From contig NZ_AP019373.1 of NCBI RefSeq assembly GCF_004323595.1, positions 744,001-808,000 on the forward strand: 64,000 bases of DNA, given 5' to 3'. The translations under genes and the position numbers were made by a program. Positions 764 to 62,593 of this stretch are shown piece after piece. This DNA comes from Sulfuricystis thermophila. Lineage in GTDB: Bacteria; Pseudomonadota; Gammaproteobacteria; Burkholderiales; Rhodocyclaceae. The notes under the pieces were generated by a model. That model did not search any database, had not been told where the DNA came from, and saw only the letters and a list, made by a program, of their open reading frames with translations. Numbering within the stretch: the stretch's first letter is position 1; every line of letters starts with the position of its first letter.

Positions 764-1746
764 ACGAGCTCTCTACCATCGCCGAAGACGGCGGCGACAT
801 CGTCATCCTCGATCAGACGAAGCTGCCGCGCGAGACGACTTATCAGCGGCTGAAGACCTTGGCCGATGCCGCTCATGCGATCCGCTCGATGCAGGTGCGC
901 GGCGCGCCCTTGATCGGCGCCACGGCGGCCTATGGCGTCGCGCTGGGTCTCCGGGAAGGCAAACCGCTCGACGAAATCCTCGCCACGCTTGCTGCGACAC
1001 GGCCGACGGCCGTCAATCTGCATTGGGCGCTGGAGAGGATGCGCCGCGTGCTCGAAAAATCGGCGCTGGCGGAACGGCTCCCGCGCGCCTGGGAAGAGGC
1101 GCGCGCCATCGCTCGCGAGGACCGTGAGGCGAATGCTGCGATCGGGCGGCATGGTCTGGCCGTTCTCGAAGCCATCGTCGAGCGCAAGGGTGCCGTCTCG
1201 GTGATGACCCATTGCAATGCCGGTTGGCTGGCCACCGTCGCCCACGGCACGGCGCTGGCGCCGATCTATGCCGCCCACGCAGCGGGACTCGCCGTGCATG
1301 TCTGGGTTTCCGAAACCCGCCCGCGCAACCAGGGTCGGCTCACCGCCTGGGAACTCGCGCAGTCGCAGGTTCCCCATACGTTCATCGCCGACAATGCTGC
1401 GGGCCTGCTGATGATGCAAGGCAAGGTGGATGTTGTGATCGTCGGCGCCGACCGCATCGCCGCCAATGGCGATACCGCCAACAAGGTCGGCACCTATCTG
1501 AAGGCGCTCGCCGCCCATGCGCACGAGGTGCCGTTCTATGTCGCGGCGCCGGTGTCGACGATCGATTTCGCCTGCCCAAATGGCGCGCAGATCCCGATCG
1601 AGGAGCGTGCCGCGGAGGAATTCGGCGAACTGCACACACCGGTCGCCAACCCGGCCTTCGACATCACGCCGGCCGCACTGATCTCCGGCATCATCACCGA
1701 ACGCGGGATCGTCGCCGCGAATGAGCTCCTGCGACTGAAGCCATGA
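760..1746 (+). CDS. mtnA: S-methyl-5-thioribose-1-phosphate isomerase
   Basis: 328 residues. MtnA converts 5-methylthioribose-1-phosphate (from methylthioadenosine) to the ribulose form in the cytoplasm; members can also act on 5-deoxyribose-1-phosphate. Visible family motifs are [16 protein letters not shown] near residue 45, the catalytic cysteine in [18 protein letters not shown], and the catalytic aspartate in [20 protein letters not shown]. The start is a TTG overlapping the secA stop; no good ATG lies upstream, so the N-terminus is slightly shorter than in many homologues and a few more residues are possible. The 3' end overlaps the next gene by 4 bases, which suggests translational coupling. 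A 25-nt dispersed motif lies inside at 1055-1080. Confidence 0.93.
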
Positions 1747-2372
1747 GCGATCTCGCCGCCGCCGTGCTCGCCACTGCGCGGGCGATGAACGCCTCTGGGA
1801 TCAATCGCGGCGCCGCCGGCAATGTCAGCGCGCGTGACGGGGAGGGTTTCATCATCACGCCGACCGGCATGGCCTATGACCAGTGCATTGCGGCGGACAT
1901 GGTGAAAGTCGGCGCTGACGGCACGGCACAGGGAAGGCGCAGGCCCTCGTCCGAATGGCGTTTCCACCACGACATCTATGCCACCCGGCCAGAGGCCGGG
2001 GCGATCCTCCATGCGCATTCGCCGTTCGCCACCGCGCTCGCCTGCCAGGAACTCGACATCCCGCCTTTTCACTACATGATCGCGCGCTTCGGCGGTGAGA
2101 CGGTGCGCTGTGCGGCTTATGCCACCTTCGGCACGCAGGCGCTTTCCGATGCCATCGTCGCGGCGCTGACCGATCGACGCGCCTGCCTGATGGCGCACCA
2201 CGGCATGGTGGTGTTCGGCGCCGATCTCGACGAGGCCCTGGCGCTGGCGATCGAGTTCGAGGCGCTGTGCGAGCAGTACTGGCGCGTGTTACAGCTCGGC
2301 GCACCGAAGCTTTTGCCGGCCGACGAGATGGCGCGCGTGATCGAGAAGTTCAAGAGCTACGGCAAGCAGTAG
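1743..2372 (+). CDS. Class II aldolase/adducin family protein, probable 5-(methylthio)ribulose-1-phosphate or deoxyribulose-1-phosphate aldolase
   Basis: 209 residues, the usual length for FucA-type class II aldolases. The metal ligands are visible in HAHSPFAT (two His) and MAHHGMVVFG (His), and the acid/base glutamate in SSEWRFHHDIY. The early GINRGAAGNVSAR motif binds the phosphate. It overlaps mtnA (ATGA), so the two are coexpressed. Known pairs of this kind (mtnA plus 'ald2') split methylthioribulose-1-phosphate into dihydroxyacetone phosphate and (methylthio)acetaldehyde without oxygen. The MtnB dehydratase also belongs to this superfamily, so a dehydratase role cannot be excluded from sequence alone. 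No mtnC or mtnD follows, which favours the aldolase reading. Confidence 0.82.
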   Translation: MSDLAAAVLATARAMNASGINRGAAGNVSARDGEGFIITPTGMAYDQCIAADMVKVGADGTAQGRRRPSSEWRFHHDIYATRPEAGAILHAHSPFATALACQELDIPPFHYMIARFGGETVRCAAYATFGTQALSDAIVAALTDRRACLMAHHGMVVFGADLDEALALAIEFEALCEQYWRVLQLGAPKLLPADEMARVIEKFKSYGKQ

Positions 2373-2397
2373 ACCATCGTGGCAGTCGGGCGGTTAC

Positions 2398-2440
2398 GCA
2401 CGAAAGGGCTGCGCAGCGTTGGCGCAGGGCCGCGCACTAC
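2398..2440. repeat. Short dispersed repeat, copy 1 (intergenic)
   Basis: The stretch starting CACGAAAGGGCTGCGCAGCG and running on through TTGGCGCAGGGCCGC recurs nearly identically at 12101-12135. It contains a hairpin (CTGCGCAGCG with GGCGCAG). It fills most of the 101-base gap between the convergent aldolase and nasA genes and may serve as a bidirectional terminator; that role is inference. Confidence 0.6.
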
Positions 2441-2473
2441 CCACGAAGGCCCGCACAACGGGCATCTCGGACA

Positions 2474-5197
2474 TCAGACGGCCATGCCGCTGCCGGACAA
2501 CATGCGCCTGATCTCGGGCACGCAGGAACCGCACGAGGTGCCGCACTTGAGTTTCTCCTGCAGCGTCGCGAGGTCGGCGCCGGCGGCGATTGCGCGCATG
2601 ATTTCATCCTCGCTGACGTCGAGGCAGTTGCAGATCACCTTGCGCGGCGCGGCCGCCGCCACGGGCGGCTCGGCGCGCGGGGCGAAGAGCCAGCGGCGCA
2701 GGGCATCGATGGGCACGCCGTCCTTCATCGCCGCACGCAGCCAGTTTCCCGCTTGGTCCTCGCCGGCGAGCAGGAGGCCGGCCAGCCGTTCGTCCTCGAT
2801 CCTTGCGCGTTTGATCACGTTTTTGGCCGGATCCCGGTAGGCAAGGCAGGCGCCCTCGGGCATCTCCAGCACGCGGGCGATCTGTTCGATGCGCGCGGCG
2901 GGCATCGGCTCGGCCGTTGCCACGCGCAGGGCGACGAGGGGGCGTTCGCGGCCGTCGAGGGTCAGCGTGGCATAGTCAAACCCGGCCAGCAGCGGAGCGA
3001 GTTTCGCGCGCCAGGCCAGCACGGTTTCGTGCGCGTCTGCCGCCAGGCCCGGCGAGCGCAGCGCCACCAGCCGCCACGGTAGGGTGGCCGGCTCGACGCG
3101 CAGCGCGGCGTGCTTGAGTTCGGGCTGCTTCGAGACCGGGTCGAAGGCCGGGATGGTCAGCACGTTGACGCCGTCGTGCGACAGGCTGCGCGCGCCCCAG
3201 TGCATGGCGACGAAGGCCTGCCCCGGGCGCACTTCCTCGCTGGCGGCGACGGGCAGCACGATCTCGCCGCGCCGGCTCTTCACGCGTATCAGCTGGCCTT
3301 CCTGCCAGCCGCGGCGGTTTAGGTCGGAGGGGTGCAAATGGATGCGCGGCTCGGGCTCGTGGCTGTAGAGGCGCGGCACGCGGCCGGTGCGGCTCATGCC
3401 GTGCCACTGGTCGCGCAGGCGGCCGGTGATGAGGCGGAAGGGATGGCGGGCGTCGGGCGCCTCGGCGGTGAGGCGCGTGTCGATGGGAATGAACTTCGCC
3501 TTACCGTCGGGGAAGGCGAAGTGGTGGTCGGCGTAGAGGCGCTGCGTGCCTTTGTTCTCGATCACAGGCCACTGTAACGGGCCGAGCTGGTCGAGCGCAT
3601 CGTGTGACAGAGTGCTGATGTCGAGATCGCGGCCCAAAGTCGTTTTGACGTACTCGGCGAAGACCTCTTCGACCGAATGGAAGTCAAAGCGTGCCGTCCT
3701 GCCAGCGCCGATTTTTTTAGAAAGCTTGAGTGCAAAGTCGCGGGCAATGCGCCAGTCGGCGCGGGCCTCTCCGGGTGGAGGCACGGCGGCGCGCACGCGC
3801 GAAATGCGGCGCTCGGAGTTGGTGACGGTGCCGTCCTTCTCTCCCCAGGTCGCGGCGGGGAGCAGCAGGTCGGCATAAGCGGCGGTCTCGGTGTCGGCCC
3901 AGGCATCCTGCACCACGACGAACTCGGCGTTGGTCAGCGCCTGTTTCACTTTCGCGAGGTCGGGCAGCGACTGGGACGGGTTGGTGCAGGCGATCCACAC
4001 CGCCTTGATGCTGCCTTCGGCAAGTGCGTCAAACATTTCCACGGCTGTTTTGCCGGGACGATCGGGCAAGGCGGGAATGCCCCACAGCGCGGCCAGCTCG
4101 GCACGGTCGGCGGGATTGTTGATGTCGCGGTGGCCGGGCAGAAGATTGGCCATCGTACCGGTTTCGCGTCCTCCCATGGCATTGGGCTGGCCGGTGAGCG
4201 AGAAGGGGCCCATACCGGGTTTGCCGATCTTGCCGGTGGCCAGATGCAGGTGGATGAGTGCGGCGCCATTGGCAGTGCCGTGGATCGACTGATTGAGACC
4301 CTGGCACCAGAAGGAGAGCGGGGCTTTCGCGTGGCCGAACATGCGAGCGGCGGTGACGATTTCCTCGGGCTTCAAGCCGCAGGCGGCGGCAACGGCACCA
4401 GGGGTGAGTTCGGCAAGCTGCGCGCGCAATGCGTCGAATCCGCAGGTGTGCGCCTGGATGAAGGCGTTGTCGGCCAGTCCCTCCCAGAGCAGCACGTGGA
4501 GCATGGCCGAATAGAGTAGGGCATCGCTGCCAGGAAGGATCGCCAGGTGCAGGGAGGATGAAGCGGCGGTGTCGGTGCGGCGCGGGTCGACGACGATCAG
4601 CTTGAGATCGGGATTCTTCTCACGCGCGGCCTCGATGCGACGGAAGACGATGGGGTGGGCATAGGCGGTGTTCGAACCGGCGATCAGGATCAGATCGGCC
4701 AGATCGATATCCTCGTAACAACAGGGTACCGCGTCGCTACCCAATGTGGCTTTGTAAGCGGCAACCGCCGAGGACATGCACAGGCGCGAGTTGGAGTCGA
4801 TGTTGTTGGTGCCGACCAGCGCGCGCGCCAGCTTGTTGAAGACGTAGTAGTCCTCGGTCAGGAGCTGGCCGGAGACGTAGAAGGCGACGGCGTCCGGGCC
4901 GTGCTCATGGATGATCGCGGCGAAACGCTCGGTCGCGACCTCCAGCGCGTTGTCCCAGGAAGTCGGCGCCGGCAGGACGGTGCGGCTCTCGCGCAGCAGC
5001 GGTACGGTGGCCCGCCCCGTACGCACGGCCGAAAGATGTAGGGTGTTGCCCTTCGAGCAGAGCTTGCCGAAATTGGCCGGATGATCGGGGTCGCCCCGCA
5101 CGCCGACGATCCTGTCGCCGGCGGCCTGGACGATGACGCCGCAGCCGGTGCCGCAGTAGCAGCAGACGCTGCGCGTCTCGGTCAAAGTGCGATCCAT
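2474..5197 (-). CDS. nasA: Assimilatory nitrate reductase, molybdopterin catalytic subunit with C-terminal [2Fe-2S] domain
   Basis: 907 residues. It reduces nitrate to nitrite in the cytoplasm for nitrogen assimilation. The N-terminal [4Fe-4S] ligands are in SVCCYCGTGCGV with the fourth Cys in GKLCSKGNTLH; the molybdopterin guanine dinucleotide domains follow. The last ~60 residues are a BFD-like [2Fe-2S] domain (ICNCLDVSEDEI and CGTSCGSCVPEI), as in the NasA type that takes electrons internally. The frame is open further upstream, but those codons lie inside nirD; the ATG at 5197 leaves a 16-base overlap with nirD and begins MDRTLTETRSVCCYCG as in homologues. The in-frame peptide KKIGAGRTA (3691-3718) comes from a dispersed 25-nt motif. 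Confidence 0.95.
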   Translation of the reverse strand: MDRTLTETRSVCCYCGTGCGVIVQAAGDRIVGVRGDPDHPANFGKLCSKGNTLHLSAVRTGRATVPLLRESRTVLPAPTSWDNALEVATERFAAIIHEHGPDAVAFYVSGQLLTEDYYVFNKLARALVGTNNIDSNSRLCMSSAVAAYKATLGSDAVPCCYEDIDLADLILIAGSNTAYAHPIVFRRIEAAREKNPDLKLIVVDPRRTDTAASSSLHLAILPGSDALLYSAMLHVLLWEGLADNAFIQAHTCGFDALRAQLAELTPGAVAAACGLKPEEIVTAARMFGHAKAPLSFWCQGLNQSIHGTANGAALIHLHLATGKIGKPGMGPFSLTGQPNAMGGRETGTMANLLPGHRDINNPADRAELAALWGIPALPDRPGKTAVEMFDALAEGSIKAVWIACTNPSQSLPDLAKVKQALTNAEFVVVQDAWADTETAAYADLLLPAATWGEKDGTVTNSERRISRVRAAVPPPGEARADWRIARDFALKLSKKIGAGRTARFDFHSVEEVFAEYVKTTLGRDLDISTLSHDALDQLGPLQWPVIENKGTQRLYADHHFAFPDGKAKFIPIDTRLTAEAPDARHPFRLITGRLRDQWHGMSRTGRVPRLYSHEPEPRIHLHPSDLNRRGWQEGQLIRVKSRRGEIVLPVAASEEVRPGQAFVAMHWGARSLSHDGVNVLTIPAFDPVSKQPELKHAALRVEPATLPWRLVALRSPGLAADAHETVLAWRAKLAPLLAGFDYATLTLDGRERPLVALRVATAEPMPAARIEQIARVLEMPEGACLAYRDPAKNVIKRARIEDERLAGLLLAGEDQAGNWLRAAMKDGVPIDALRRWLFAPRAEPPVAAAAPRKVICNCLDVSEDEIMRAIAAGADLATLQEKLKCGTSCGSCVPEIRRMLSGSGMAV
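3691..3718 (-). repeat. Dispersed 25-nt motif inside nasA
   Basis: Plus strand reads GTGCCGTCCT followed by GCCAGCGCCGATTTTTTT. On the coding strand it is read K-I-G-A-G-R-T-A. The same motif recurs in at least eleven genes and several intergenic sites of the window. Confidence 0.7.
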
Positions 5198-8733: not shown

Positions 8734-9657
8734 TCAGCTCTCCGTGTGCAGACGCTTGGCCAGCAGCAGCAAGGTTTGTTCGAGGATCAGGCCGACGATG
8801 CCGATGACGAAGATGGCGATGATGATGTGCTCGACCTTGAGGTTGTTCCACTCGTCCCACACCCAGAAGCCGATGCCGACGCCGCCAGTGAGCATCTCGG
8901 CCGCGACGATCACCAGCCAGGCCGTGCCGATCGACAGCCGGATGCCGGTCAGCATGTAGGGCAGCACGCTGGGGAACAAGATCTTGGTGACGATCTTCCA
9001 CTCGGACAGGTTGAGCACGCGCGCCACGTTGAGGTAGTCCTGCGGCACGCGCACCACGCCCTGGGCGGTGTTCATGATCATCGGCCAGATGGAGCAGATG
9101 AAAATCGTCCAGGTCGCGGCCGGGTCGGCCTTCTTGAACACCAGCAGGCCGATCGGCAGCCAGGCGAGCGGCGAGACGGGCCGCAGCAGGCTGATGATCG
9201 GGTTTGCCATGCTCGAGAGCGTGGCGAAACGCCCGAGCAGGAAGCCGACCGGGATGCCCACCAGTGCCGCGAAGCCGAAGCCGACGGCGACGCGCTGCAG
9301 CGAGGAAAGGATGTTCCAGCCAATGCCCTGGTCGTTCGGCCCGTTGCGGTAGAACGGGTCGGCGAAGAGCTTTGTCGCTGCCTCCCAGGTTTGGCCCGGG
9401 GTCGGGATGCTGCCACCGTTCATGGTGGCCAGTTGCCAGATGGCGAGCAGCAGCACCAGACCCATGACCGGCGGCAGGATGGCGGCGAAGAAGGCGCGCA
9501 TCGCCGCCGAGTTCTGCTCCGTGGTGCTCGGCCCGACGAGTTGCGAAGGAGGCGGAGGCGGGGGTACGCTCAGTTTCGCCGTCCCAGATGGAAAGCTGGC
9601 CGGCTGTGCCGTCGCGCTAGCGCCGACTTTCATGGCATGGATGGTCATTGCCGTCAT
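8734..9657 (-). CDS. nrtB: Nitrate ABC transporter, permease
   Basis: 307 residues, inner-membrane permease of the nitrate importer. A ~65-residue N-terminal extension rich in Ala, Ser and Pro (including PPPPPPSQ) precedes the first hydrophobic helix at VMGLVLLLAIWQLA. The BPD-type coupling loop is visible around VARVLNLSEWKIVTKILFPS (EAA-like region), followed by SIGTAWLVIVAAEML. The ATG at 9657 is used; the early residues MKVGASATA are encoded by a copy of the dispersed 25-nt motif (9606-9630), so part of the extension may come from that repeat. It lies 19 bases after nrtA. Confidence 0.93.
   Translation of the reverse strand: MTAMTIHAMKVGASATAQPASFPSGTAKLSVPPPPPPSQLVGPSTTEQNSAAMRAFFAAILPPVMGLVLLLAIWQLATMNGGSIPTPGQTWEAATKLFADPFYRNGPNDQGIGWNILSSLQRVAVGFGFAALVGIPVGFLLGRFATLSSMANPIISLLRPVSPLAWLPIGLLVFKKADPAATWTIFICSIWPMIMNTAQGVVRVPQDYLNVARVLNLSEWKIVTKILFPSVLPYMLTGIRLSIGTAWLVIVAAEMLTGGVGIGFWVWDEWNNLKVEHIIIAIFVIGIVGLILEQTLLLLAKRLHTES
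9606..9630 (-). repeat. Dispersed 25-nt motif inside nrtB N-terminus
   Basis: GTGCCGTCGCGCTAGCGCC followed by GACTTT, one of the degenerate copies. It is read K-V-G-A-S-A-T-A in nrtB, in the same frame as the nasA, carA, nosF and nosG copies. Confidence 0.6.
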
Positions 9658-11114: not shown

Positions 11115-11139
11115 GAAAGCCGGCGCTGGCGAGACGGCA
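11115..11139. repeat. Degenerate 25-nt dispersed motif in the promoter region
   Basis: AAAGCCGGCGCTGGCGAGAC followed by GGCAT differs at three positions from the consensus of the family seen in nasA, menE, menC and others. It lies between the sigma-54 promoter and the NtrC-like sites. Confidence 0.5.
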
Positions 11140-11157
11140 TGTCTGCTCGTGCAAGCT

Positions 11158-15955: not shown

Positions 15956-17087
15956 TCGTGTTTTTCTCCATCATCGCGATGAAGCGATCGAACAGATAGG
16001 CGACGTCGTGCGGGCCGGGGCTCGCTTCGGGGTGGCCCTGGAAGCACAGCGCCGGACGGTCGGTCCAGGCCATGCCCTGCAGCGAGCCGTCGAACAACGA
16101 GACATGGGTGACCTTGACGTTTGCCGGCAACGTCGCCGGGTCGACGGCGAAGCCGTGGTTCTGGCTGGTGATCAATACCTGGCCGGTGTCCAGGTCCTTG
16201 ACCGGGTGGTTGGCGCCATGGTGGCCGAACTTCATCTTCAACGTCTTGCCACCGGCGGCCAGACCCATCAGCTGATGGCCGAGACAGATGCCGAAGGCGG
16301 GAATCTTGCGGTCGAGGAGTTCCCGGATCGCGGCGATCGCGTAGTCGCAGGGTTCGGGATCGCCCGGCCCGTTGGAGAAGAATACGCCGTCCGGGTTCAT
16401 CGCCAGCACCTCGCTGGCGGGGGTTTGCGCCGGCACGACGGTGAGGCGGCAGCCGCGGCTGGCGAGCATGCGCAGGATATTGCGTTTGACGCCGAAGTCA
16501 TAGGCGACGACATGGAATCTGTCCTGTGCCGGTGCCGTGTAGCCAGCGCCGAGTTTCCATTCACCTTCGTTCCATGAATAGGGCTTGGAGGTGGTGACGA
16601 CCTTGGCGAGATCCATGCCGGCCAGTCCCGGGAAGGCGCGTGCCCGGGCAATCGCGTCATCCGCATCGAGGTCCTCGCCGGTCATCAGACAGCCGGCCTG
16701 CGCGCCTTTCTCGCGCAAGATGCGGGTGAGTTTGCGGGTATCGATGTCGGCGATGGCGACGACGTTCTCGCGCTTCAGATAATCGCTGAGCGTCTGTTCG
16801 GAACGGAAGTTCGAGGCAATGAGGGGCAGATCGCGGATCACCAGCCCGGCGGCGTAAATCCGGTCTGCCTCGCAGTCTTCGCGATTGATGCCGGTATTGC
16901 CGATGTGTGGGTAGGTGAGGGTGACGATCTGGCGCGTGTAGGAAGGATCCGTGAGGATCTCCTGATAGCCGGTCATCGCGGTGTTGAACACCACTTCCCC
17001 GACCGATACGCCGGTCGCGCCGATGCCCTTGCCCCGAAATACCGTTCCGTCGGCGAGGGCGAGCAAGGCAGACGGAAATGCGGTCAA
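15948..17087 (-). CDS. carA: Carbamoyl-phosphate synthase, small (glutaminase) subunit
   Basis: 379 residues. It hydrolyses glutamine and feeds ammonia to CarB. The class I glutamine amidotransferase triad region is visible as [16 protein letters not shown] (nucleophile Cys) and [14 protein letters not shown] (His, Glu). The N-terminal CPSase domain has [16 protein letters not shown]. The peptide KLGAGYTAP (16532-16558) comes from a degenerate dispersed 25-nt motif lying in the linker between the two domains. Confidence 0.97.
16532..16558 (-). repeat. Dispersed 25-nt motif inside carA
   Basis: GTGCCGTGTAGCCAGCGCC followed by GAGTTTCC; read K-L-G-A-G-Y-T-A on the coding strand in the interdomain linker. 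Confidence 0.55.
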
Positions 17088-26887: not shown

Positions 26888-26907
26888 CCACGTCGCGCTT
26901 GACTGGT

Positions 26908-36966: not shown

Positions 36967-38825
36967 GCGTTGCCGGTCAGTTGCGCGTACAAGAGCGGCA
37001 GGCGGTCGGGCAGCTCCTCGGGCTTTCTGACGATGGTGTAGCCCGCCGGGCCGAAGAGATGCGGCAGATAGCCGGCGCCCTCGCGATCGATGGTGACGCA
37101 AAACGGCTTGATGCCGGCTTCGCGTGCTTCGATCAGCGCCATGCGCGTGTCCTCGATGCCGTAGCGGCCTTCATACAGGTCGATGTCGTGCGGCTTGCCG
37201 TCGGAGAGGATCAAGAGCAGCCGGCGATTGGCCGGCTGTTTTTCGAGGAGTTGCGTCGCGCGTCGCACCGACGCACCCATGCGCGTATACCAGCCGGGTT
37301 TGATGGCCGCGATGCGGCCGCGTGCGATGGCGTCGAGCGGGCGGTCGAAGGGCTTGATCTCGTGGAAGCGCACGAAGCTGCGCTTCAAGGACGAGAAGCC
37401 GTAGAAGGCAAAGGCATCGCCGGTGGCGGAGAGCGCCTCGCCGAAGAGCATCAGGCTATCGCGGATCACATCGATCACCTTCTGCGTGTCATTGGCATAG
37501 GCATCGGTGGACAGCGACAGATCGGCGAGCACGAGACAGGCGAGATCGCGCTCGGTCGGCCGCTGGTTCAAATACGCGCCGGCGCCCGAGAAATGCCAGC
37601 CGGCCAGTCGATCCGCGGCGATGCGCACGCAGGCGTCGATGTCGAGCTCCGAGCCTTCGGGCTGGGCCTTCTGCCAGCGGCGCACCGGCGCGAGCGCGGC
37701 GAACTGGTTCTTGAGCTTCCGCGCATGGCGCCGCAGGCGCTCGGGCAGCGGCTGCGCCTCGACTTGGCGCGCCACCATCGTCTGCAGCCGGCAGAAATCC
37801 GGCTTCATCGTCTGGCGCTTCCAGTCCCATTCGGGCAGCAGAATGCCGGGGCCGACGAGAAGATCGTCCTCGGCCGCCGCCGGCAGATCGAGATCGAAGC
37901 GCACCTTCGAGGCGACACGCTCGCCTCCTTCGGCGAGCGTGAGCTTGTCGAGTGTCTCGGCGGCGCGGCCGGCGTCCGGGTTCTCGTCCTCGTCGAGCGC
38001 GCGATTGACGCGCAGATATTCGGCCCAGGACAAAAGGCTTTCGGCGCGGAAGAGCAGGATCAGCGGCGATTCGTTCTCCGGCAGCTCGCCGCGTTCGGCC
38101 TGGTAGCGCTTGTTCTCGACCGGCTGTTCCTTCGGCTGCTCGCCCTGTGTTTCCTCACTGCCGGGATCGTGCCGGCGCTGCTTCGTAGCGGCCGGTGGCA
38201 CGGGATAGAGCCACAGCGGCACCGGCTGCAAAGCCTTCGCCCTCTTGCGGGTGAGCGGCGGCAGCTCGGCGACGCTGCCGGGATCGACAAGCGCCTGGCG
38301 CACGGCGCGCTCCTGCGCCGCCTCGTCGGCCGGCATCTGCTCGGGCGGGATGCGCTCGGCGAGCACGGCCTCGACCAGCTGCCGGTAACGTGCCGTCAGG
38401 CCCGGATAGCGTTGCAGGGTGACCCAGGTGGCAAACTGGTTCTGGACGATCCAAGCCTCTGTAAATTTTTCCAGCGCCGGCCCCGCGCTGGCCGCCAGCG
38501 CCGCGAGCCAGACATAAAGATCGCGGTTCAAACTCGGCGCTGGCAGGACGGCAAGCCGCGGCGGCAAGACGAGGGTTTCGCGGTCGAGCGCGGCATGGGC
38601 GGCGCGACTGTCCGTGCCGGCGATGCGTTGCATCAGGCGCCGGCGCGCGCCGTGCGCCACATCGGCCGCCGCCGCGATGCGTAGGCCCGGATCTCCCCCC
38701 AGCGCACGGAAGATCACGCCGAGCGTCTTTTCGATGTCCTTGAGTGCGACGGCCGCCTCGGGATGATCGCGCCGCGCCGTCTGGGTGATCCAGCGATCCC
38801 ACAGTGCGCCGACCCATTCTTCCAT
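36963..38825 (-). CDS. norD: Nitric oxide reductase activation protein NorD
   Basis: 620 residues. NorD is a soluble VWA-domain protein that, with the NorQ ATPase, activates nitric oxide reductase. The C-terminal von Willebrand A domain has the MIDAS start VLADLSLSTDAYAND and LILSDGKPHDIDLYEGRYG. The N-terminal two-thirds are helical and poorly conserved. A half copy of the dispersed motif (38529-38552) encodes LPAPSLN. The gene starts one base after the 133-residue membrane protein and overlaps nnrS. Confidence 0.93.
   Translation of the reverse strand: MEEWVGALWDRWITQTARRDHPEAAVALKDIEKTLGVIFRALGGDPGLRIAAAADVAHGARRRLMQRIAGTDSRAAHAALDRETLVLPPRLAVLPAPSLNRDLYVWLAALAASAGPALEKFTEAWIVQNQFATWVTLQRYPGLTARYRQLVEAVLAERIPPEQMPADEAAQERAVRQALVDPGSVAELPPLTRKRAKALQPVPLWLYPVPPAATKQRRHDPGSEETQGEQPKEQPVENKRYQAERGELPENESPLILLFRAESLLSWAEYLRVNRALDEDENPDAGRAAETLDKLTLAEGGERVASKVRFDLDLPAAAEDDLLVGPGILLPEWDWKRQTMKPDFCRLQTMVARQVEAQPLPERLRRHARKLKNQFAALAPVRRWQKAQPEGSELDIDACVRIAADRLAGWHFSGAGAYLNQRPTERDLACLVLADLSLSTDAYANDTQKVIDVIRDSLMLFGEALSATGDAFAFYGFSSLKRSFVRFHEIKPFDRPLDAIARGRIAAIKPGWYTRMGASVRRATQLLEKQPANRRLLLILSDGKPHDIDLYEGRYGIEDTRMALIEAREAGIKPFCVTIDREGAGYLPHLFGPAGYTIVRKPEELPDRLPLLYAQLTGNA
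38529..38552 (-). repeat. Dispersed 25-nt motif inside norD
   Basis: CAAACTCGGCGCTGGCAGGA followed by CGGC; read A-V-L-P-A-P-S-L, the same frame as the nnrS and menE copies. Confidence 0.7.
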
Positions 38826-45434: not shown

Positions 45435-47292
45435 CCGGAGACGAAAACCCGGCGCGGCTTGTCGCGGGATCGATCACCGCTTCGATGAGGCAGGCGCGCG
45501 GCAGCGGTGTGAGGGCCTCCGCGAGCGCCTCCAACGAGGTCACGCGCCGATGCTCGAGACGGAAGGCGGCGGCAAGCGCAGCGAAATCGCCGCCTTGCGG
45601 CGCGCGCCAGCCGCGTTCGAGCAGTTCCGCCGGCAGCGCTGGCGCGAACGGCAGATGATCGAAGATGCCGCCGCCGCCGTTGTTGAGCAGCACGACGGTC
45701 ACGCCGTGACGGGCGGCGAGGGCGAGGCTCGTCGCGTCGTGCAGCAGCGTCTGATCGCCGATGAGCGCGACGGTGGGCGCCTGGCTCGCCTGTGCGATGC
45801 CGGCGGCCGTGGCGAGATTGCCATCGATCCCTGAGGCGCCGCGGTTGCCGTAAAGCGTCAGGGGCGTCTCCCCCAGGCCGCCGAAGGCATCGACGGCGCG
45901 GATCGCCAGCGAGTTGCCGACGAAGACCTGGCTGCCGGCGGGCAGCCGTCTGAGCAGCTCACGCGCGATCGTGCCCTCGAAGAAGCGGGTGTCGGTCATG
46001 GCGCGGGCGGCGGCCTCGGCGGCCAGCCACTGGGTGGAAAAGTCGGCGCTGGCAGGACGGCACATGGACGCGAGCGCCGAGGCGATCGCGAGCGGCTCGC
46101 CGCGCAGCCAGGTGCTGCTCTGCCACAGCGGATCGGGCCAGCGGGCAGGCGGGGCGACGAGGAAGTGCTCGGCATCGGCGAGAGCTTGTGAAAAATTCTG
46201 CTGCGCGGCCCGCTGGCTGCGTTGCGCGGTGTTGGCTTCGGCCGCTTCGCTTAACCTCGGCTGCGCCGAGGTTAGCCTACGCCGAAACTCCGTTTTCGCT
46301 CCCTCGCCTAACTCGATGTTATGTCTCGGTCGCTGCGCTCCGGGCGCCTTGCCATCAGCCCGCTCGCGACGAATTTTTTCACAAGCTCTGAGACTATTGA
46401 GCCAGCGTTCGATCGTGCGCGAGACGGGAAAGGCGCCGAAGCGCAGCACCCAGGCCGGCCGGGGTAGGTCGGTATCGCGCAGAAAGCGCGCGGCGTGAGC
46501 GACGAAGTGCGACTTGTCGTGTGGGCCGAAGCGCAGGTTGGCGAGTGCTTCAGCGATCACGGGCGCATCGAGCGCGATGCCCAAGCGTGCCACCGTATCG
46601 GCAAAGCCATCCGGATAGTGCGCCTCGCCGCAGACGATCACCCCCGGCCGGCTGGTGAGCCGCGCGGCGATCGCTGCGAGCCCTTGCGGCACTGCGGCGG
46701 GCGGCGCCTGGACGGCCACGGCGGCCGGCAAAGGCGACGGCGCGGGGATCGTTTCCGGCAAGAGCGGCTCGGCAAACGGCACGTTGACATGCACGGGTCC
46801 GGCGACGGGAAAGCTCGCCGTCTCGATGAGTCGTGCCGCGAAGGCGGCAAAGAAGCGCGCCTCGATCGCCTCATCCGGCGGCGGCAGCGCATGAAAGGCG
46901 CGCACATGCTCGCCAAAAAGCTTCGTCTGATCGACGGTCTGGTTTGCGCCCCAGCCGTGGATTTCCGCTGGGCGGTCAGCCGTGAGGACGATCAGCGGCA
47001 CAGCGGCGAGGTTCGCCTCCATCACCGCCGGCAAGAGGTTCGCCGCGGCGGTGCCCGAGGTGGTCACCACCAGCGCCGGCCGTCCGCTCGCCTTGCCCAG
47101 CCCCAGCGCGAAGAAGCCGGCGGCGCGCTCGTCGTTGATGACCTGGCAAGCCAGCTCCGGACGGCGCAAGGCGGCCAGCGCGAGCGGCGCCGAGCGCGCG
47201 CCGGGGGCGAGCACCGCATCGCGCACGCCGGCGGCGGCGAGTGCGGCGATCAGGCGATCGGCCCAGGCGAGATTGCGCGCCCCCGTGTTCAT
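45370..47292 (-). CDS. menD: 2-succinyl-5-enolpyruvyl-6-hydroxy-3-cyclohexene-1-carboxylate synthase, with two repeat insertions
   Basis: 640 residues versus ~555-580 in relatives. MenD is the thiamine-diphosphate enzyme that joins isochorismate and 2-oxoglutarate in menaquinone synthesis. Motifs are intact: LAPGARSAPLALAAL, ANLAAVPLIVLTADRP, GNRGASGIDGNLATAAG, VVLLNNGGGGIFDHLPF. The excess comes from three places: an inverted-repeat element (46181-46389) in frame between WLNSL and ADAEHFL adding about 65-70 residues; the motif RPASADF (46038-46063); and a C-terminal tail (NAHAGNRHPRRMKY) encoded by a dispersed repeat. The frame is open throughout, so the protein is probably made; activity needs test. 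Overlaps menF by 4 bases. Confidence 0.9.
   Translation of the reverse strand: MNTGARNLAWADRLIAALAAAGVRDAVLAPGARSAPLALAALRRPELACQVINDERAAGFFALGLGKASGRPALVVTTSGTAAANLLPAVMEANLAAVPLIVLTADRPAEIHGWGANQTVDQTKLFGEHVRAFHALPPPDEAIEARFFAAFAARLIETASFPVAGPVHVNVPFAEPLLPETIPAPSPLPAAVAVQAPPAAVPQGLAAIAARLTSRPGVIVCGEAHYPDGFADTVARLGIALDAPVIAEALANLRFGPHDKSHFVAHAARFLRDTDLPRPAWVLRFGAFPVSRTIERWLNSLRACEKIRRERADGKAPGAQRPRHNIELGEGAKTEFRRRLTSAQPRLSEAAEANTAQRSQRAAQQNFSQALADAEHFLVAPPARWPDPLWQSSTWLRGEPLAIASALASMCRPASADFSTQWLAAEAAARAMTDTRFFEGTIARELLRRLPAGSQVFVGNSLAIRAVDAFGGLGETPLTLYGNRGASGIDGNLATAAGIAQASQAPTVALIGDQTLLHDATSLALAARHGVTVVLLNNGGGGIFDHLPFAPALPAELLERGWRAPQGGDFAALAAAFRLEHRRVTSLEALAEALTPLPRACLIEAVIDPATSRAGFSSPANAHAGNRHPRRMKYHDHAQK
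46038..46063 (-). repeat. Dispersed 25-nt motif inside menD
   Basis: AAAAGTCGGCGCTGGCAGGA followed by CGGCAC; read C-R-P-A-S-A-D-F, the same frame as in menC. Confidence 0.75.
46181..46389. repeat. Inverted-repeat element inserted in menD
   Basis: 209 bp bounded by inverted ends AGAGCTTGTGAAAAATTC and GAATTTTTTCACAAGCTCT. Internal blocks TTCTGCTGCGC and GCTCGCGACGAA match the ends of the element at 40956-41101. An inner hairpin is AACCTCGGCTGCGCCGAGGTT-like (46251-46273). It is translated through in frame. Confidence 0.85.
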
Positions 47293-48599: not shown

Positions 48600-49954
48600 C
48601 GCCAGAGACTCGGCAGCGCGCGCCGGTCGAGCTTGCCGGAAGCGAGCCTGGGCAGCCGCGCCACGCGCAGGAAGCGCCGCGGCCGGCGGGTGGAAGGTAG
48701 TTGGGCGCGACACCAGGCCTCGACCGCCGCCTCATCCGCGTCGCCCTCGAAAGCCGCGGCGATCAGATCGCCCCAGACCGGGTCAGAGAGCCCCGTCACC
48801 GCCGCCGCACGCACGCCGGGACAGGCGGCAAGCCGTGCCTCGACTTCGAGCGGATGAACCTTCACGCCGGCGGAGTTCAGCACGTCGTCGACGCGGCCGA
48901 GGATCGTGACGTGACCGTCGGCATCGATCCTGGCGAGATCGCGGGTGGCGATCCACTCGCCGACATCGGCCTCGTTCAGGTAGCCGGCCATGCGGGCGGG
49001 GGTGGCGACTTCGAGGGTGCCGGCCTCCGACAGGCGTACCCGCACGCCGGGCAACGGCCGGCCGTCGACGAGGGCGGTGGCGCAGGTTTCCGTCATGCCA
49101 TAGGAGAGGCGGATCGGCCAGCCTGCCGCGCGCGCTTGGCTTTCCAGCAGCGGGGAAAGCGCCGCGCCGCCGATGAGCGCACATTTCAAACTCGGCGCTG
49201 GCGGAAATGAAGGCGTCCCGCCGGGCGCCGACTCACCTCCAAAAGTCGGCGCTGGCGGAAATGAAAGCGTCCCGCCGGGCGCCGACTCACCTCCAAAAGT
49301 CGGCGCTGGCGGAAATGAAGGCGTCCCGCCGGGCGCCGCCTTGTTTCGGAGAGTCGGCGCTGGCGGGACGGCACCCTCGATGAGTTGCGCCAGCATCGCC
49401 GGCACCAAAGAGACGTGGGTGATGCGCCGCTCGGCGAGGGCGCGTGCTACGGCTGCGACTTCGAAGCCTTCCTGCACGATGGCCGTCGCGCCGGCGCGCA
49501 AAGAGCGGTAGAGGGTCATCGCGCCGGCGATGAAATGGAGCGGCAGACAGCACAGCCAGGCATCCCGCGGCTGCAAGTCGAGCGCGCGTGCACTGATGCG
49601 CGCGGCAGCGGCGATCGACCGCCGGGTCAGGCGCACGCCCTTCGGCTCTCCGGTCGAGCCGGAGGTGGCGATGATCAGCGCCAAGCGTGGGTTTGCCGCC
49701 GCCGCGGCCTGTTCGATGAGCCGCGCGCGTGTTGCACTGGACAGATGGGGCGGCAGGGGAAAAGCGGTGCCACCGCCCAGGGCGCAGTCGATGAGGCCGA
49801 GCGCGATGGTTGCTGCATCGCCTTCGAGCACGGCCAAACCCCGGCAGCCTGCTCTGCCGGCGAGCTCGCCATAGGAAAAGCTGCGGCCATCGGGCAAGAC
49901 GAGCGCGGGCCGGTCGGGGTCGGTGCGGGAGAGCCAGCGGCGGAAGAGGTGCAT
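48596..49954 (-). CDS. menE: o-Succinylbenzoate-CoA ligase with tandem 18-residue repeat insertion
   Basis: 452 residues. MenE activates o-succinylbenzoate with ATP and CoA. Adenylate-forming motifs: IIATSGSTGEPKGVRLT, LSYGMTETCATAL, GYLNEADVGEWIATRDLARI, VKVHPLEVEARL, and the catalytic-Lys end SGKLDRRALPSLW. Between LIEGAVPP and SLKCALIGGA lies a ~62-residue stretch of 18-residue units (FPPAPTFGGESAPGGT type) encoded by three to four 54-bp repeats (49188-49374). Without it the protein has normal length. The insertion falls in the N-terminal domain before a beta strand, probably as a surface loop. Confidence 0.92.
   Translation of the reverse strand: MHLFRRWLSRTDPDRPALVLPDGRSFSYGELAGRAGCRGLAVLEGDAATIALGLIDCALGGGTAFPLPPHLSSATRARLIEQAAAAANPRLALIIATSGSTGEPKGVRLTRRSIAAAARISARALDLQPRDAWLCCLPLHFIAGAMTLYRSLRAGATAIVQEGFEVAAVARALAERRITHVSLVPAMLAQLIEGAVPPAPTLRNKAAPGGTPSFPPAPTFGGESAPGGTLSFPPAPTFGGESAPGGTPSFPPAPSLKCALIGGAALSPLLESQARAAGWPIRLSYGMTETCATALVDGRPLPGVRVRLSEAGTLEVATPARMAGYLNEADVGEWIATRDLARIDADGHVTILGRVDDVLNSAGVKVHPLEVEARLAACPGVRAAAVTGLSDPVWGDLIAAAFEGDADEAAVEAWCRAQLPSTRRPRRFLRVARLPRLASGKLDRRALPSLWR
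49188..49374 (-). repeat. Tandem 54-bp repeats inside menE
   Basis: Three full 54-bp units plus a half unit. Each starts with GTCGGCGCTGGCGGAAATGA (or CTCGGCGCTGG) and includes GCGTCCCGCCGGGCGCCG; the last unit changes to CCTTGTTTCGGAGA before the closing half unit. 54 bases is 18 codons, so copy number can change without frameshift. Confidence 0.92.
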
Positions 49955-53994: not shown

Positions 53995-55078
53995 TTCCCA
54001 GTCCTGCGACGTTCGGCAGTTGCAGGATGCCGCCGCTGATGGCGGGGGGCGCGGCCACGTCGAGCGCGAGCCATGCCGAGGTGCCGAGTCCATGCGCGAG
54101 ATCGGGCGCGAGCGCCGCTGCGAGATGCGCGGTGGCGGCAAGCCCGACGGCCGAGTCGATCACCGAGGTGAGCACGACCTCGATGCCGGCTGCCTGTGCC
54201 GCTTGCGCGATGCGACGGGTCGGCGTGATGCCGCCGAGTCGTGCGGGTTTGAGCACCAGCCGGCGCACCGCACGGCTTTCGATGAGCAAAGCGAGGGATG
54301 AGTCCGGCAGCGATTCGTCGAGGGCGAGCGCGAAAGGCAGCTCCGCCTGCAAGGCGGCGAGGCTGGCGAGCGACGGCTGGGCGAGTGGTTCTTCGACCGC
54401 ATCGATCGCCAGATCGCGCAGCGCCAGCAGGAAACGTCGCGCATCGTCCTCTCGCCAGGCGCGGTTGGCGTCGAGCCGCAGGCGCAGCCCATCGGGCAGT
54501 GCGCGCAGACGGGCGATTTCCTCGTCGATCGGCGCGAGCCCGACTTTGATCTTGCCGATGCGATAACCCTCCGCGGCGGCCTCGCCGAGTCGGCGCGGCA
54601 AGTCGTCGTCCAGGGGCCCGAGCGCGGCGTTGACTTCGACTGTATCGCGATTGCCGCCGAGATGACGCCACAAAGCTTGGTTCGCGCGGCGGGCGCCGAG
54701 ATCGGCCTGCGCGGTCTCGATCGCCCAGCGCGCTTCCGGAGGCAGGGTATGAAAATCGGCGCTGGCGGAAATGAGGACGTCCCGCCGGGCACCGCCTTGT
54801 TTCGGAGAGTCGGCGCTGGCGGAAATGAGGACGTCCCGCCGGGTGCCGCCTTGTTTCGGAGAGTCGGCGCTGGCGGGACGGCACGCCCAGCGGTGGAGCG
54901 CATCGAGGACCCGTTGCGGATCGCCGCCAGAAGGCAAGGGCGCGCAATCGCCCCAGCCTTGATACCCGTCGGCGTCGATGAGATGCAGCAGCGCCCCACG
55001 CCGCTCGGTCAGTATGGCGCTCGCCGCCACCCAGGGCCGCACCAAGGGCAGGCGGTAGGGGAGGACTTCGGCGCGCAT
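53963..55078 (-). CDS. menC: o-Succinylbenzoate synthase with tandem repeat insertion
   Basis: 371 residues. MenC (enolase superfamily) dehydrates SHCHC to o-succinylbenzoate. Motifs: GWGDCAPLPSGG, the Lys loop IGKIKVGLAP, metal ligands RLRLDANRAW, VEEPLAQ and ALDESLPD, and the second Lys VLKPARLGG. After HRWA a ~40-residue stretch (RPASADSPKQGG, RRDVLISASADS units) is encoded by 54-bp-family repeats (54752-54884) and read in a frame different from menE. Without it the length is normal. It is the last gene of the nos-men run, 8 bases after menB, and overlaps the convergent GGDEF/EAL gene. Confidence 0.92.
   Translation of the reverse strand: MRAEVLPYRLPLVRPWVAASAILTERRGALLHLIDADGYQGWGDCAPLPSGGDPQRVLDALHRWACRPASADSPKQGGTRRDVLISASADSPKQGGARRDVLISASADFHTLPPEARWAIETAQADLGARRANQALWRHLGGNRDTVEVNAALGPLDDDLPRRLGEAAAEGYRIGKIKVGLAPIDEEIARLRALPDGLRLRLDANRAWREDDARRFLLALRDLAIDAVEEPLAQPSLASLAALQAELPFALALDESLPDSSLALLIESRAVRRLVLKPARLGGITPTRRIAQAAQAAGIEVVLTSVIDSAVGLAATAHLAAALAPDLAHGLGTSAWLALDVAAPPAISGGILQLPNVAGLGITPAAVPAGG
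54752..54884 (-). repeat. Tandem 54-bp repeats inside menC
   Basis: Two full units and a closing half unit. Units contain GTCGGCGCTGGCGGAAATGA, GACGTCCCGCCGGG and CCGCCTTGTTTCGGAGA. Read as R-R-D-V-L-I-S-A-S-A-D-S-P-K-Q-G-G, 18 residues per unit. Confidence 0.92.
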
Positions 55079-59419: not shown

Positions 59420-59431
59420 GGCAGGAGCTCC

Positions 59432-60307
59432 TCAAGGTGCCGTGTCGCCAGCGCCGACTTTTTCGGACAAGCCGAGATCGGCGAGCAGGGCGACATAACG
59501 CGAGAGCATGCCGAGGAAGCGCAGGCGGTCCGGCCCGGCCACTTCGCCGCGCCAAGTGATGCCGTCATCATCGGTGGTGAATTTCCAGCTCGTCAGCGTC
59601 TTGGCTAGTGCGGCGTCCTGACGGCGCACGACGAGGCGGCAGGCGAAAAGACCCGAGAGCGAGACATCGTCGGCGACCTTGTCGTCGAGCACGATCTTGC
59701 CCATGTCCATTTCGATGACGCGATTGACCAGCGCGGCGACTTCGTCGATGCGGTGGCTCGAGATGATCATCGTCGCATCGTGCTGGCGTTCGGCCAGGAG
59801 CTCGAAGAAGATCTTGCGTGCCGCCGGGTCGAGGTTGGCGGCCGGCTCGTCCATGATCAAGAGCTTCGCATTGCGGCCGAGCGCGATGGCGATCAGGAGC
59901 TTCTGCTTCATGCCGCCGGAGAGCCGGTTGAAAGGGCGCGTGCGGATCGAATCGACGGGCAGGCCAAGACGCTCGGCAATCGCGTCGATCTGGCCGTGAT
60001 CGGCCCCGGAGAGTGCGGCGGAGAATTCGATCAGCTGGCCGACCGGCATCTTCAAGGGCGGCGGCAGCTGGGGCACGAAGCCGATCTTGCCGAGCACCGC
60101 GGTGCGCTCGGTGCGTGGAGTATGGCCATCGATGGTCACCTTGCCTTCATGGACGTATTCGCCGAGCAGACAGCGGATCAAGGTGGTCTTGCCGGCGCCG
60201 TTCGAGCCGATCAGCGCGATGCGTTCGCCCAAGCGCACGTCGAGATCGATGCCGTCGAGCACACGCGCGCGGCGGAAGGATTTGGAGAGGTTTTCGCAGC
60301 GGATCAT
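59432..60307 (-). CDS. nosF: NosF, ABC-type ATPase for nitrous oxide reductase maturation
   Basis: 291 residues. Walker A LIGSNGAGKTTLIRCLLGEY, signature NRLSGGMKQKLLIAIAL, Walker B LLIMDEPAANLDPA, switch IISSHRID. It pairs with NosY. The start ATG overlaps the hicA stop codon, so its translation is coupled to a toxin gene. The last residues KVGAGDTAP and the stop codon come from a copy of the dispersed motif (59437-59463). Confidence 0.94.
   Translation of the reverse strand: MIRCENLSKSFRRARVLDGIDLDVRLGERIALIGSNGAGKTTLIRCLLGEYVHEGKVTIDGHTPRTERTAVLGKIGFVPQLPPPLKMPVGQLIEFSAALSGADHGQIDAIAERLGLPVDSIRTRPFNRLSGGMKQKLLIAIALGRNAKLLIMDEPAANLDPAARKIFFELLAERQHDATMIISSHRIDEVAALVNRVIEMDMGKIVLDDKVADDVSLSGLFACRLVVRRQDAALAKTLTSWKFTTDDDGITWRGEVAGPDRLRFLGMLSRYVALLADLGLSEKVGAGDTAP
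59437..59463 (-). repeat. Dispersed 25-nt motif at the nosF C-terminus
   Basis: GTGCCGTGTCGCCAGCGCC followed by GACTTTTT; read K-V-G-A-G-D-T-A-P at the end of NosF. Confidence 0.75.
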
Positions 60308-60674: not shown

Positions 60675-60712
60675 GGTTCGCTCCAGCGGTGTCATCCGAT
60701 CGAGGCGTCAGT

Positions 60713-61696
60713 CTACATCAGCTTCGATAGCCCCTTGATGTCGAACTTCAGCGAACCGGTCGGGCAGGTGTCGACGCACAGCCCACAGCGCGTGCAGTCC
60801 GGGCCGATCGGCACTTCGGTGTCGACCGCGCGGCCTTTGATCACCGTGTCCAGTACGTGCGGCACCAGACAGACCTTGCGGCAGTCGCCCTCGTGGAAGC
60901 AGCCTTGGAGCGTGTATTTGACGCGCAGCGGTGAGACGATACCGACCACGCCATAGGTCAGCCCGATCGGGCAGGCATAGCGACACCAGGCGCGGCGCAC
61001 GAAGAATACTTCGAAGACCAGGAGCGCCAGCACCCAGAGCATGGCCAGCACACCGCCGCTGTAGATCAGGGCCCGCGAGACGATGCCGGTCGGCGAGATC
61101 GATTCATACACGGTGTAGCCGGTAATGAGCGCCAGCAGCGCGAAGATGACCCAGGAGACGGTGCGCCAGCGGCGATCGATCGGCGTGTCGGTGACGAGCT
61201 TCTTTTGCACCAGGAAGAGGTGGAGCTTTTCGGCCCATTCGGCGAGGAAATGATAGGGACACACCCAGGAACAGAAGGTGCGCCCGCCGAGCAGGATCCA
61301 CAACGCCAGCACCGTGCCGGTGCCGATCAGGAGGTTGGTGATGATGTGCTTGTGGGCGAGCATCACCTGCAGGGCCGAGTTGAGGTCGATCAGGTGGAAG
61401 CCGGCGAAACGCGAGGCGGTGAGCGCGCCTTCGAGCAGCTGGATGTCGAAGTGGTAAGAGACGACGAACAGCAGATTGACGAAGATCAGCGTCGCCCAGC
61501 GGATGTTGCGCCACTTGTGGTTCTTCTCGCGGGCGCGGTGCGCCTCCTTCGCGGCGGCGAGTTCCGCCTTGTTGGTCATGCGCTTCAACTGATGCACCTC
61601 GATGGCGCGTTCTTCGATCAGCGTGGGCTTTTGCGGTTCGGCGCCGAACATCACCTTGATCTGTTCGACGAAGCGGCGTTTGAGTGCGTTGCTCAT
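60713..61696 (-). CDS. nosH: NosH, NapH-like membrane ferredoxin (quinol-linked electron transfer to NosZ)
   Basis: 327 residues. Four to five membrane helices with Cys motifs CSWVCPYHFLAEW and CRYACPIGLTYG facing the membrane surface, then a ferredoxin domain CFHEGDCRKVCLVP and CTRCGLCVDTCPTGSLKF. NapH relatives oxidise menaquinol and pass electrons to NosG/NapG. It follows nosG by 3 bases. The NosH name reflects the clade II nos cluster order. Confidence 0.92.
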   Translation of the reverse strand: MSNALKRRFVEQIKVMFGAEPQKPTLIEERAIEVHQLKRMTNKAELAAAKEAHRAREKNHKWRNIRWATLIFVNLLFVVSYHFDIQLLEGALTASRFAGFHLIDLNSALQVMLAHKHIITNLLIGTGTVLALWILLGGRTFCSWVCPYHFLAEWAEKLHLFLVQKKLVTDTPIDRRWRTVSWVIFALLALITGYTVYESISPTGIVSRALIYSGGVLAMLWVLALLVFEVFFVRRAWCRYACPIGLTYGVVGIVSPLRVKYTLQGCFHEGDCRKVCLVPHVLDTVIKGRAVDTEVPIGPDCTRCGLCVDTCPTGSLKFDIKGLSKLM

Positions 61697-61699
61697 ACC

Positions 61700-62593
61700 T
61701 TAAGTCCTCCAGCCTTCGCCGGGTATGACCTCGATGCTCGCCGGCTCGGTCGGGCAGATCATCTCGCAGACCCCGCAGCCGACACAGGGCTCATGCACGA
61801 CGGGCGTCTTTCGTTGGCTGCCATCCGGCGCGAACACGGTTTCCAGACTGATCGCACCCTTGATCGGGCAAGCCTGCACGCACAAATCGCACAGTTCGAC
61901 ATCATAGGGATGGTCGGCGACCTTGATCGGCCGCCAGCGATCGACGCTCATGTAGCGCAGCTCGCCCTTGAAGTCGGGGCCGCGCGCCTGCCCCTTGAAG
62001 CCCTTGCCTTGCATCGCGAGGCAGGATTCGGGACGGGTGAGCCGGGCGACACCGATGCGTTCGGTGAGATTGAGCGTCGGCTCGGGGTCTTTCTCCTTGG
62101 CGAGCAAAATCGGCTTTTCAGCCAGCTTCGCACCCGGGCGTACGCTCATGTAGGCCGGCTTCTTGTAGGTCAGCGCCCCGGTTGGGCAGGCGAGGATGCA
62201 CTGCACCGCGTCGCAGGAAAAATCGCAGGCTTGCTCGCGCGCTTCGATGTAGGGCACGCCGACGCCGAAGCCATCGGCAAGGTCGGCGAGTTTGATCGCA
62301 TTCACCGGGCAGACCTGCACGCATTGTCCGCACTTGATGCAGCTGGCGAGAAAATCCTTTTCATCGAGCGCACCGGGCGGGCGCAGGCGTTTCTTCTGCG
62401 CATAGGCGACGGGCAGAAAGCCCGACAGCGCAGCGCCGAACACGCCGCCACCGAGCAGGATGGTGCGCATGAAGCGGCGGCGCGCCTGCAGGCGCCGCTC
62501 CTTGGAAAGGGGCGGTTTGGCGCCGGGGGCTCCCTGGGGGGGCGGGGGTGCCGTGTCAGCAGCGCCGACTTTGGGGGTGTCGTCTTCGCTCAT
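61700..62593 (-). CDS. nosG: NosG, NapG-like periplasmic polyferredoxin
   Basis: 297 residues. A twin-arginine signal (RRRFMRTILLGGGVFGAAL) precedes four [4Fe-4S] cysteine sets: CIKCGQCVQVCPVNAIK, CDFSCDAVQCILACPTGAL, CDLCVQACPIKGAI and CVGCGVCEMICPTEPAS. It accepts electrons from NosH for NosZ. The N-terminal PKVGAADTAP comes from a dispersed motif copy (62548-62574). The start overlaps the nosD stop by 4 bases. Confidence 0.94.
   Translation of the reverse strand: MSEDDTPKVGAADTAPPPPQGAPGAKPPLSKERRLQARRRFMRTILLGGGVFGAALSGFLPVAYAQKKRLRPPGALDEKDFLASCIKCGQCVQVCPVNAIKLADLADGFGVGVPYIEAREQACDFSCDAVQCILACPTGALTYKKPAYMSVRPGAKLAEKPILLAKEKDPEPTLNLTERIGVARLTRPESCLAMQGKGFKGQARGPDFKGELRYMSVDRWRPIKVADHPYDVELCDLCVQACPIKGAISLETVFAPDGSQRKTPVVHEPCVGCGVCEMICPTEPASIEVIPGEGWRT
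62548..62574 (-). repeat. Dispersed 25-nt motif at the nosG N-terminus
   Basis: GTGCCGTGTCAGCAGCGCC followed by GACTTTGG; read K-V-G-A-A-D-T-A-P before the Tat signal. Confidence 0.65.

Follow-up and report, generated by a model that had tools for sequence, protein, structure and literature searches.

The motif in the window

We analysed a 64,000-nt stretch of the Sulfuricystis thermophila genome (contig NZ_AP019373.1, positions 744,001 to 808,000), referred to below as the window. It carries copies of a 25-nt motif, GTGCCGT-NNN-GCCAGCGCCGASTTT, both within and between genes. The motif stands either alone (solo motif) or in a long form, in which it is joined to palindromic units of 54 nt. Here we describe both forms and their distribution, and we consider whether the solo motif may mark DNA for uptake. 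G000 denotes the window's own genome (2.74 Mb, one contig), G002 a motif-bearing congener, G006 a congener almost without the motif, and g1 the genus of the window.

Solo motifs were found on both strands of the window. On the reverse strand they lie in mtnA (1056..1080), where the gene strand reads E-K-S-A-L-A-E-R-L and G002 has a peptide of the same length; in an Aldolase_II gene (1905..1929), at a site common to G000 and G002; in an intergenic region (11116..11140, one core mismatch); in a gene that the first-pass annotation labelled norD (38530..38554); and in menD (46039..46063), where G002 has the long form at the same place. On the forward strand they lie in a molybdopterin oxidoreductase gene of the nitrate reductase/formate dehydrogenase type (3691..3715), which reads K-I-G-A-G-R-T-A; near the N-terminus of a nitrate ABC transporter permease (9606..9630); in carA (16532..16556), where an alignment of 30 CarA sequences shows no insertion; near the C-terminus of an ABC transporter ATPase (59437..59461), nosF-like according to the first-pass annotation; and, with two core mismatches, near the N-terminus of a 4Fe-4S protein (62548..62572), nosG-like according to the same source.

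The long form, motif plus 54-nt unit, is intergenic at 26906..26984 (forward strand), and a degenerate intergenic version lies at 31411..31490 (forward strand). The remaining copies are on the reverse strand: a long form in nnrS (36779..36857) with one unit, against two in G002; an array in menE of the motif and three units (49188..49374), at a site where G002 has neither motif nor units; and an array in menC of the motif and two units (54752..54884), where G002 has a motif variant of the same length and no units.

The first-pass annotation had listed 14 of these sites, and all are present with 0–3 mismatches to the 15-nt core of the motif; it overlooked the one in the Aldolase_II gene (1905-1929). 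It had also described a 25-nt motif at every site, whereas five places (from 26906, 31411, 36779, 49188 and 54752) hold the longer form with 54-nt units instead. Among its gene names, mtnA, carA, menD, menC and the nitrate transporter permease passed NCBIfam cut-offs, menE matched the right model below its cut-off, and NnrS had a Pfam match; the protein named norD had no Pfam match.

Copy number and structure of the solo motif

Copies were counted with the 15-nt core, allowing up to one mismatch genome-wide and up to three in the window, and the reversed pattern served as control. The whole of G000 contains 437 core matches (207 forward and 230 reverse) against none for the reversed control. 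In the window we found 30 matches, compared with a mean of 4.5 in shuffled sequences, and none of 100 shuffles reached 30. Base composition, which had been named as a possible cause of the copy number, is rejected by the empty reversed control and the far lower counts of the shuffles.

The motif was then defined from 464 kb of G000, made up of the window plus 20 further 20-kb stretches, which yielded 82 usable copies at up to one core mismatch. Copies less than 80 nt from the end of a stretch were skipped, and a copy counted as solo only if no other copy lay within 120 nt, which retained 59 of the 82. The solo motif is a sharp-edged 25-mer with the full consensus GTGCCGT-(C/T/G)(C/T)(C/T)-GCCAGCGCCGA(C/G)TTT, which is not followed by an A. 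Near-invariant positions are columns -9 to -4 and 0 to 14, with mostly C or G in column 11, and the three columns between the blocks are variable; the flanks present no clear conservation except for a G-rich column or two. Copies per 20 kb are scattered as by chance (variance/mean 1.04). An Rfam scan of the window returned a single match at the gathering score, a narK RNA that overlaps no motif. This RNA (RF03032; 10995-11064, reverse strand) is just at the gathering score and adjoins the nitrate transport genes.

Position of the motif within genes

Using a simple gene caller of our own, by which 90% of the 464-kb sample is coding, 61 of the 82 copies were intragenic, 18 were intergenic and three fell at gene edges. 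The density of copies per base is about 2.5–3 times lower in genes than in the non-coding tenth. The intragenic copies are concentrated in four reading frames, encoding K-V/L-G-A-G-x-T-A (25 copies), A-V-P-P-A-P (17), C-R-x-A-S-A (11) and K-S-A-L-A (7), and the two Arg-rich frames are nearly empty (1 and 0). By reading, none of the six frames of the consensus contains a stop codon. This count per frame, which the first-pass annotation had proposed, bears out its view of one dispersed family that tolerates genes and is read in several frames. Its placement of the motif at protein termini is not supported: of the 44 solo intragenic copies, only 5 are 20 aa or less from a protein end, compared with about 13% expected, so that gene ends are not favoured. 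By quintile along the gene, these 44 copies number 9, 6, 11, 10 and 8. Repeated peptides such as KVGAGxTAP in the proteins of these bacteria would reflect a process at the DNA level rather than protein function.

Substitution and insertion at orthologous sites

CarA was matched in all 37 genomes searched, and 30 loci were returned, 18 from this genus (G000 included) and 12 from other members of the family and order. The length of CarA at the motif site is equal in 29 of the 30, with or without the motif; a gap of one residue occurs there in one row, and two rows gain four residues further on. Eight of the 30 carry the motif at up to two core mismatches, and the others encode peptides such as LGKGYVPQ.

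We also compared G000 with G006, querying 76 sites (55 solo) and dropping alignments below 45% identity or not spanning the site, which left 12 sites, all solo. Five of these were gapless, one had a three-residue gap nearby and six were gapped at the site itself, by 1, 16, 3, 1, 10 and 4 residues. The residues are lacking in G000 for the gap of 1 at locus L051 and the gaps of 3 and 4, and in G006 for the rest. Overall, the length difference was 0–4 residues at 10 of the 12 sites, and no uniform insertion of 24–27 nt was seen across them; the two sites at which G006 lacks 16 and 10 residues could be insertions. A comparison of G000 with G002, in which 21 of 106 sites were alignable and several arrays were paired with non-orthologous arrays, gave a 14/5/2 split that is rough.

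From these alignments, the solo motif seems to originate mostly through base changes and not through insertion. The suggested kinship with Rickettsia palindromic elements (RPEs), which implied that host proteins would contain the peptide as a clean insertion, is therefore not borne out for the solo motif: motif-free orthologues encode peptides of equal or almost equal length at most of the sites compared, CarA and 10 of the 12 sites compared with G006 among them, and the two sites lacking 10 and 16 residues depart from this pattern.

Palindromic units of the long form

The long form is defined by an arm, AGTCGGCGCCCGGCGGGACG. Searching the fetched stretches of G000 for this arm at up to four mismatches gave 20 rows, in 17 of which it follows a motif; the other three have no adjoining motif and look like chance matches. 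For single arm matches at up to three mismatches in the 464-kb sample, a motif lies within 45 nt upstream in 17 of 19 cases. Motif and arm together form an interrupted hairpin, after which the right 15 nt of the motif recur, giving a repeat unit of 54 nt or 18 codons. The stem is longer than that of the CGTC-tagged palindromic repeats discussed below, is interrupted and closes on a 10-nt loop. Long forms fold strongly (z -4.4 and -2.9), whereas the solo motif does not fold (z +1.07).

Units are added in frame. Relative to G002, G000 has two more units in menC and three more in menE, at sites that are otherwise equal in length by reading, so that palindromic insertions absent from the orthologue are indeed observed at these two genes. 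The likeness to RPEs consequently holds for the long form, with 18 residues per unit. Besides the difference of one unit in nnrS, solo and long forms interchange at orthologous sites, as in menD and at L047_19564. The stretches sampled from G006 and from six genomes of five other genera (G026, G019, G110, G086, G105 and G079), all six of which carry solo motifs, did not yield the arm, and it was present in one of 120 loci from named records. Because the arm was not found in the other genera sampled and extra units are seen in menC and menE, we infer that motif sites acquired the 54-nt units, which may be restricted to this genus and its close kin. A plasmid or phage origin of the long form was rejected, as searches of 72,556 plasmid records and 50,697 phage records gave no match.

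Distribution and genus dialects

Extending the scan to relatives, as had been suggested, revealed 231–645 core matches in 17 of 18 congeners, G006 having only 5. Two genomes of two other genera were likewise motif-rich (G019 with 530 matches and G026 with 586). The other 16 genomes of the same family in that survey had 0–14 matches, and 24 other genomes of the order had 0–5. A stricter pattern was found in 17 of 399 genomes drawn evenly from the order, namely four of the family and 13 others with 1–5 matches each. Finally, the reduced pattern GCCGT-N12-GACTTTT was enriched in 26 of 199 family genomes, belonging to 9 of 68 genera, with 19–616 matches, compared with nine or fewer in the other 173 and at most five for the reversed control.

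The consensus varies by genus on a fixed frame of GCCGT, 12 nt and GACTTTT. The dialects are GTGCCGT..GCCAGCGCCGASTTT in g1; CGCCGT.. in g2 and g9; ..CCAGCGTCGACTTTT in g69; often ..RTCACCAGCGCCGA.. in g88; and ..GGGACTGACTTTT in g11, a form (GCCGT..GGGACTGACTTTT) first revealed by G028. The motif was apparently lost in single species, G006 in g1 and G558 in g11; the latter has no matches, against 208–300 in three others of its genus. In 634 kb of G006, no 9- or 11-mer was enriched to the degree of the motif in motif-rich genomes, which gives no sign of a replacement. Likewise, no motif of their own stood out in 160 kb of G033 and 120 kb of G067.

Among the matches listed, named records with the motif are mostly metagenome-assembled genomes of Rhodocyclaceae, several of them titled Sulfuritalea, with single records from other betaproteobacteria. 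The solo motif is also held by 47 stretches of viral contigs, 44 of which have it once; one viral contig (L284) has four copies within 1.4 kb.

Competence genes

Of 37 genomes searched, 34 gave a match to ComEC and 36 to DprA (34 of these over the cut-off), G000 and G006 included in both cases. In a second set of 19 genomes, 17 had DprA, the motif-rich G019 with only a weak match below the cut-off. A pilin of the ComP_DUS family (PF16732) was found in 50 of 55 family genomes, motif-rich or not, and in none of 14 controls. In G000 the match, at C1:1712620-1712847, is a pilin-like protein of 143 aa in a cluster of pilin-like genes, the neighbours being labelled by reading. Beside this cluster lies a gene that we take to be IspH-like (L394, 4054-4983, reverse strand), which carries the motif peptide KLGAGGTAP. 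These gene contents are compatible with natural competence in these bacteria. Loss of competence genes is unsupported as the cause of the motif loss in G006, where ComEC, DprA and the ComP-family match are all kept.

Other repeats

Further repeated sequences were observed. Another dispersed repeat (families D6 and D10) occurs in the window at 11216-11394, 23091-23258 and 45179-45435; its copies are mostly intergenic and 63–95% identical to the reference copy. An inverted repeat pair of 89 nt, 80% complementary and 2.4 kb apart, lies at 23859-23947 and 26304-26392. Repeated coding segments at 42084-42702 and 63044-63500 are perhaps NosD-like beta-helix repeats. In G002, a second dispersed word unrelated to the motif, CCAGATTGTCCA, occurs 20 times in 400 kb (L211-L230).

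Interpretation

Four traits lead us to read the word as resembling a DNA uptake sequence (DUS): gain largely by substitution, occurrence on both strands, a fixed frame with clade-specific variation, and absence from single species. In our judgement there is about an even chance that the solo motif is a genome-wide self-marker of this kind, spread by recombination. Motif-bearing DNA would be favoured in natural transformation by a DNA receptor at the cell surface, possibly a minor pilin resembling ComP, and recombination of the preferentially imported DNA would spread copies and restore them where the host protein can accommodate the encoded peptide. In this genus, the 54-nt palindromic units would form a second layer, expanding where a motif is already present. 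The fuller proposal is plausible, if somewhat short of probable: Rhodocyclaceae would be a third family with its own uptake-type language, consisting of a bipartite 24-bp word with a 12-nt spacer and a diverged middle that constitutes the genus dialects, read by a ComP-like pilin and lost in single species, and the 54-nt palindromic cassette of one genus would land on intragenic words.

Several observations weigh against an uptake function. At 24–25 bp, the motif is longer than the DUS (12 bp) and the uptake signal sequence (USS; 10 bp; PubMed Central record PMC2346458, in excerpt). Half of the 12 solo sites compared with G006 have a gap at the site. At 13 orthologous solo sites (those of 57 with usable alignments between G000 and G002), identity was 0.89 in the motif against 0.86 in the flanks, so that single sites are only weakly conserved. 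DprA was not found in the motif-rich G114 and G015 of the second set, and the ComP-family pilin was not found in the motif-rich G086 (98% complete), G013 (76%) and G016 (83%). ComEA (TIGR00426) scored above the cut-off in 4 of the 37 genomes and in none of the g1 genomes, of which ten, G000 among them, were searched; the weaker match in G000 is probably another protein, because it lies in an open frame of 832 aa. Moreover, no tested gene tracks the motif, since G006, although almost without it, and the motif-poor genera have the same genes.

This last result would suit a chromosomal role, in which the motif is the binding site of a protein acting in nucleoid organisation, segregation, repair or replication. 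If many dispersed sites were selected for, they too would be created by substitution and on both strands, and two conserved blocks at fixed spacing with a chance-like spread are what such a site might look like. We nevertheless consider this explanation unlikely, though a serious contender: genus dialects and absence from G006 and G558 would be odd for a core chromosome function, conservation per site is weak, and chromosomal proteins are not known to have 24-bp sites in the hundreds.

It is quite improbable that the motif derives from a mobile palindromic element resembling repetitive extragenic palindromic (REP) sequences, RPEs or miniature inverted-repeat transposable elements, with the 79-nt long form as the element and solo motifs as remnants after deletion between its 15-nt direct repeats. 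The strong folding of the long forms, their exchange with solo motifs at menD and L047_19564, the clean multiples of 18 aa in menC and menE and the 10 and 16 residues missing from G006 at 2 of 12 solo sites would all be expected of such an element, and REPs tagged by CGTC are likewise intragenic without a known transposase (PMC3733652, in excerpt). However, CarA keeps its length with and without the motif, 10 of the 12 sites are only 0–4 residues off G006, and the congener G002 has a bare site of the same length at menE and menC. The long arm, furthermore, was not found in the sampled stretches of six solo-bearing genomes of other genera, the solo motif does not fold, and no Y1 transposase was found in G000. 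Highly improbable, finally, is a selfish conversion tract without selective function, in which solo motifs are patched in from other copies by templated repair or gene conversion: this would give substitution at constant length and homogeneity within a genome, and so fits the consensus, CarA and G006 data, but usual conversion tracts are longer than 25 bp, the edges here fall sharply at 25 bp and the copies share no flank, and dialects at fixed spacing would be left unexplained.

If the DUS-like reading is true, a third uptake-word system, complete with dialects and apparent losses, would make it possible to test how words for self-recognition originate and evolve. It would also suggest that these bacteria, many of which are known only from metagenomes, exchange DNA by transformation.

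Comparison with known systems

Searches of the open-licence literature of PubMed Central listed no description of genomic uptake words outside Neisseriaceae and Pasteurellaceae. We have not filed the motif as DUS, USS or REP, because each of these classes has a defining feature that the motif lacks or that lies beyond sequence analysis. The GTAG REPs associated with REP-associated tyrosine transposases (RAYTs), and the REP doublets forming hairpins (REPINs), resemble our repeats in their high copy number and, for the long form, in paired inverted arms. In contrast, the motif consensus contains no GTAG and the majority of copies are intragenic; identity with RAYT-linked REPs was rejected, as a search of G000 for the Y1 transposase domain (PF01797) gave no match at E 0.001. 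The CGTC-tagged REPs, which include Rickettsia RPE-4 and RPE-6, are closer in that the motif contains CGTC and the long form is palindromic, can be intragenic and has no known linked transposase. These REPs are characterised by a terminal CGTC, a stem of 8–9 bp, a loop of 4–5 nt and a short tail. The solo motif nonetheless lacks such a stem and loop, its CGTC is internal, and the long form has a different stem.

Like the USS of Pasteurellaceae, the motif is dispersed genome-wide in coding and non-coding DNA. The sequences are unrelated, and the gene-end bias reported for Pasteurellaceae (PMC2346458, in excerpt) is not seen here. The DUS of Neisseriaceae differs in its length of 12 bp, against a bipartite motif of 24–25 bp here, and in number, with about 900 to 5900 copies (PMC3630211) against hundreds; the CTG core and the A at +10 that are common to all DUS dialects, as given in the excerpted part of PMC3630211, are missing from the motif consensus. 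The left block nevertheless reads GCCGTCT in copies with the linker CTC or CTT (15 of 64), as in the AT-DUS ATGCCGTCTGAA (PMC2346458, in excerpt). The excerpted sources further describe DUS dialects by clade (PMC3630211), a bias of reading frame and orientation within genes (PMC2346458), and DUS that face gaps or unrelated sequence in relatives (PMC2397512). The motif, too, is dispersed on both strands, lies within genes with a frame preference, has clade dialects and is missing from some lineages, and most members of the family searched here encode a ComP-family pilin, as Neisseriaceae do.

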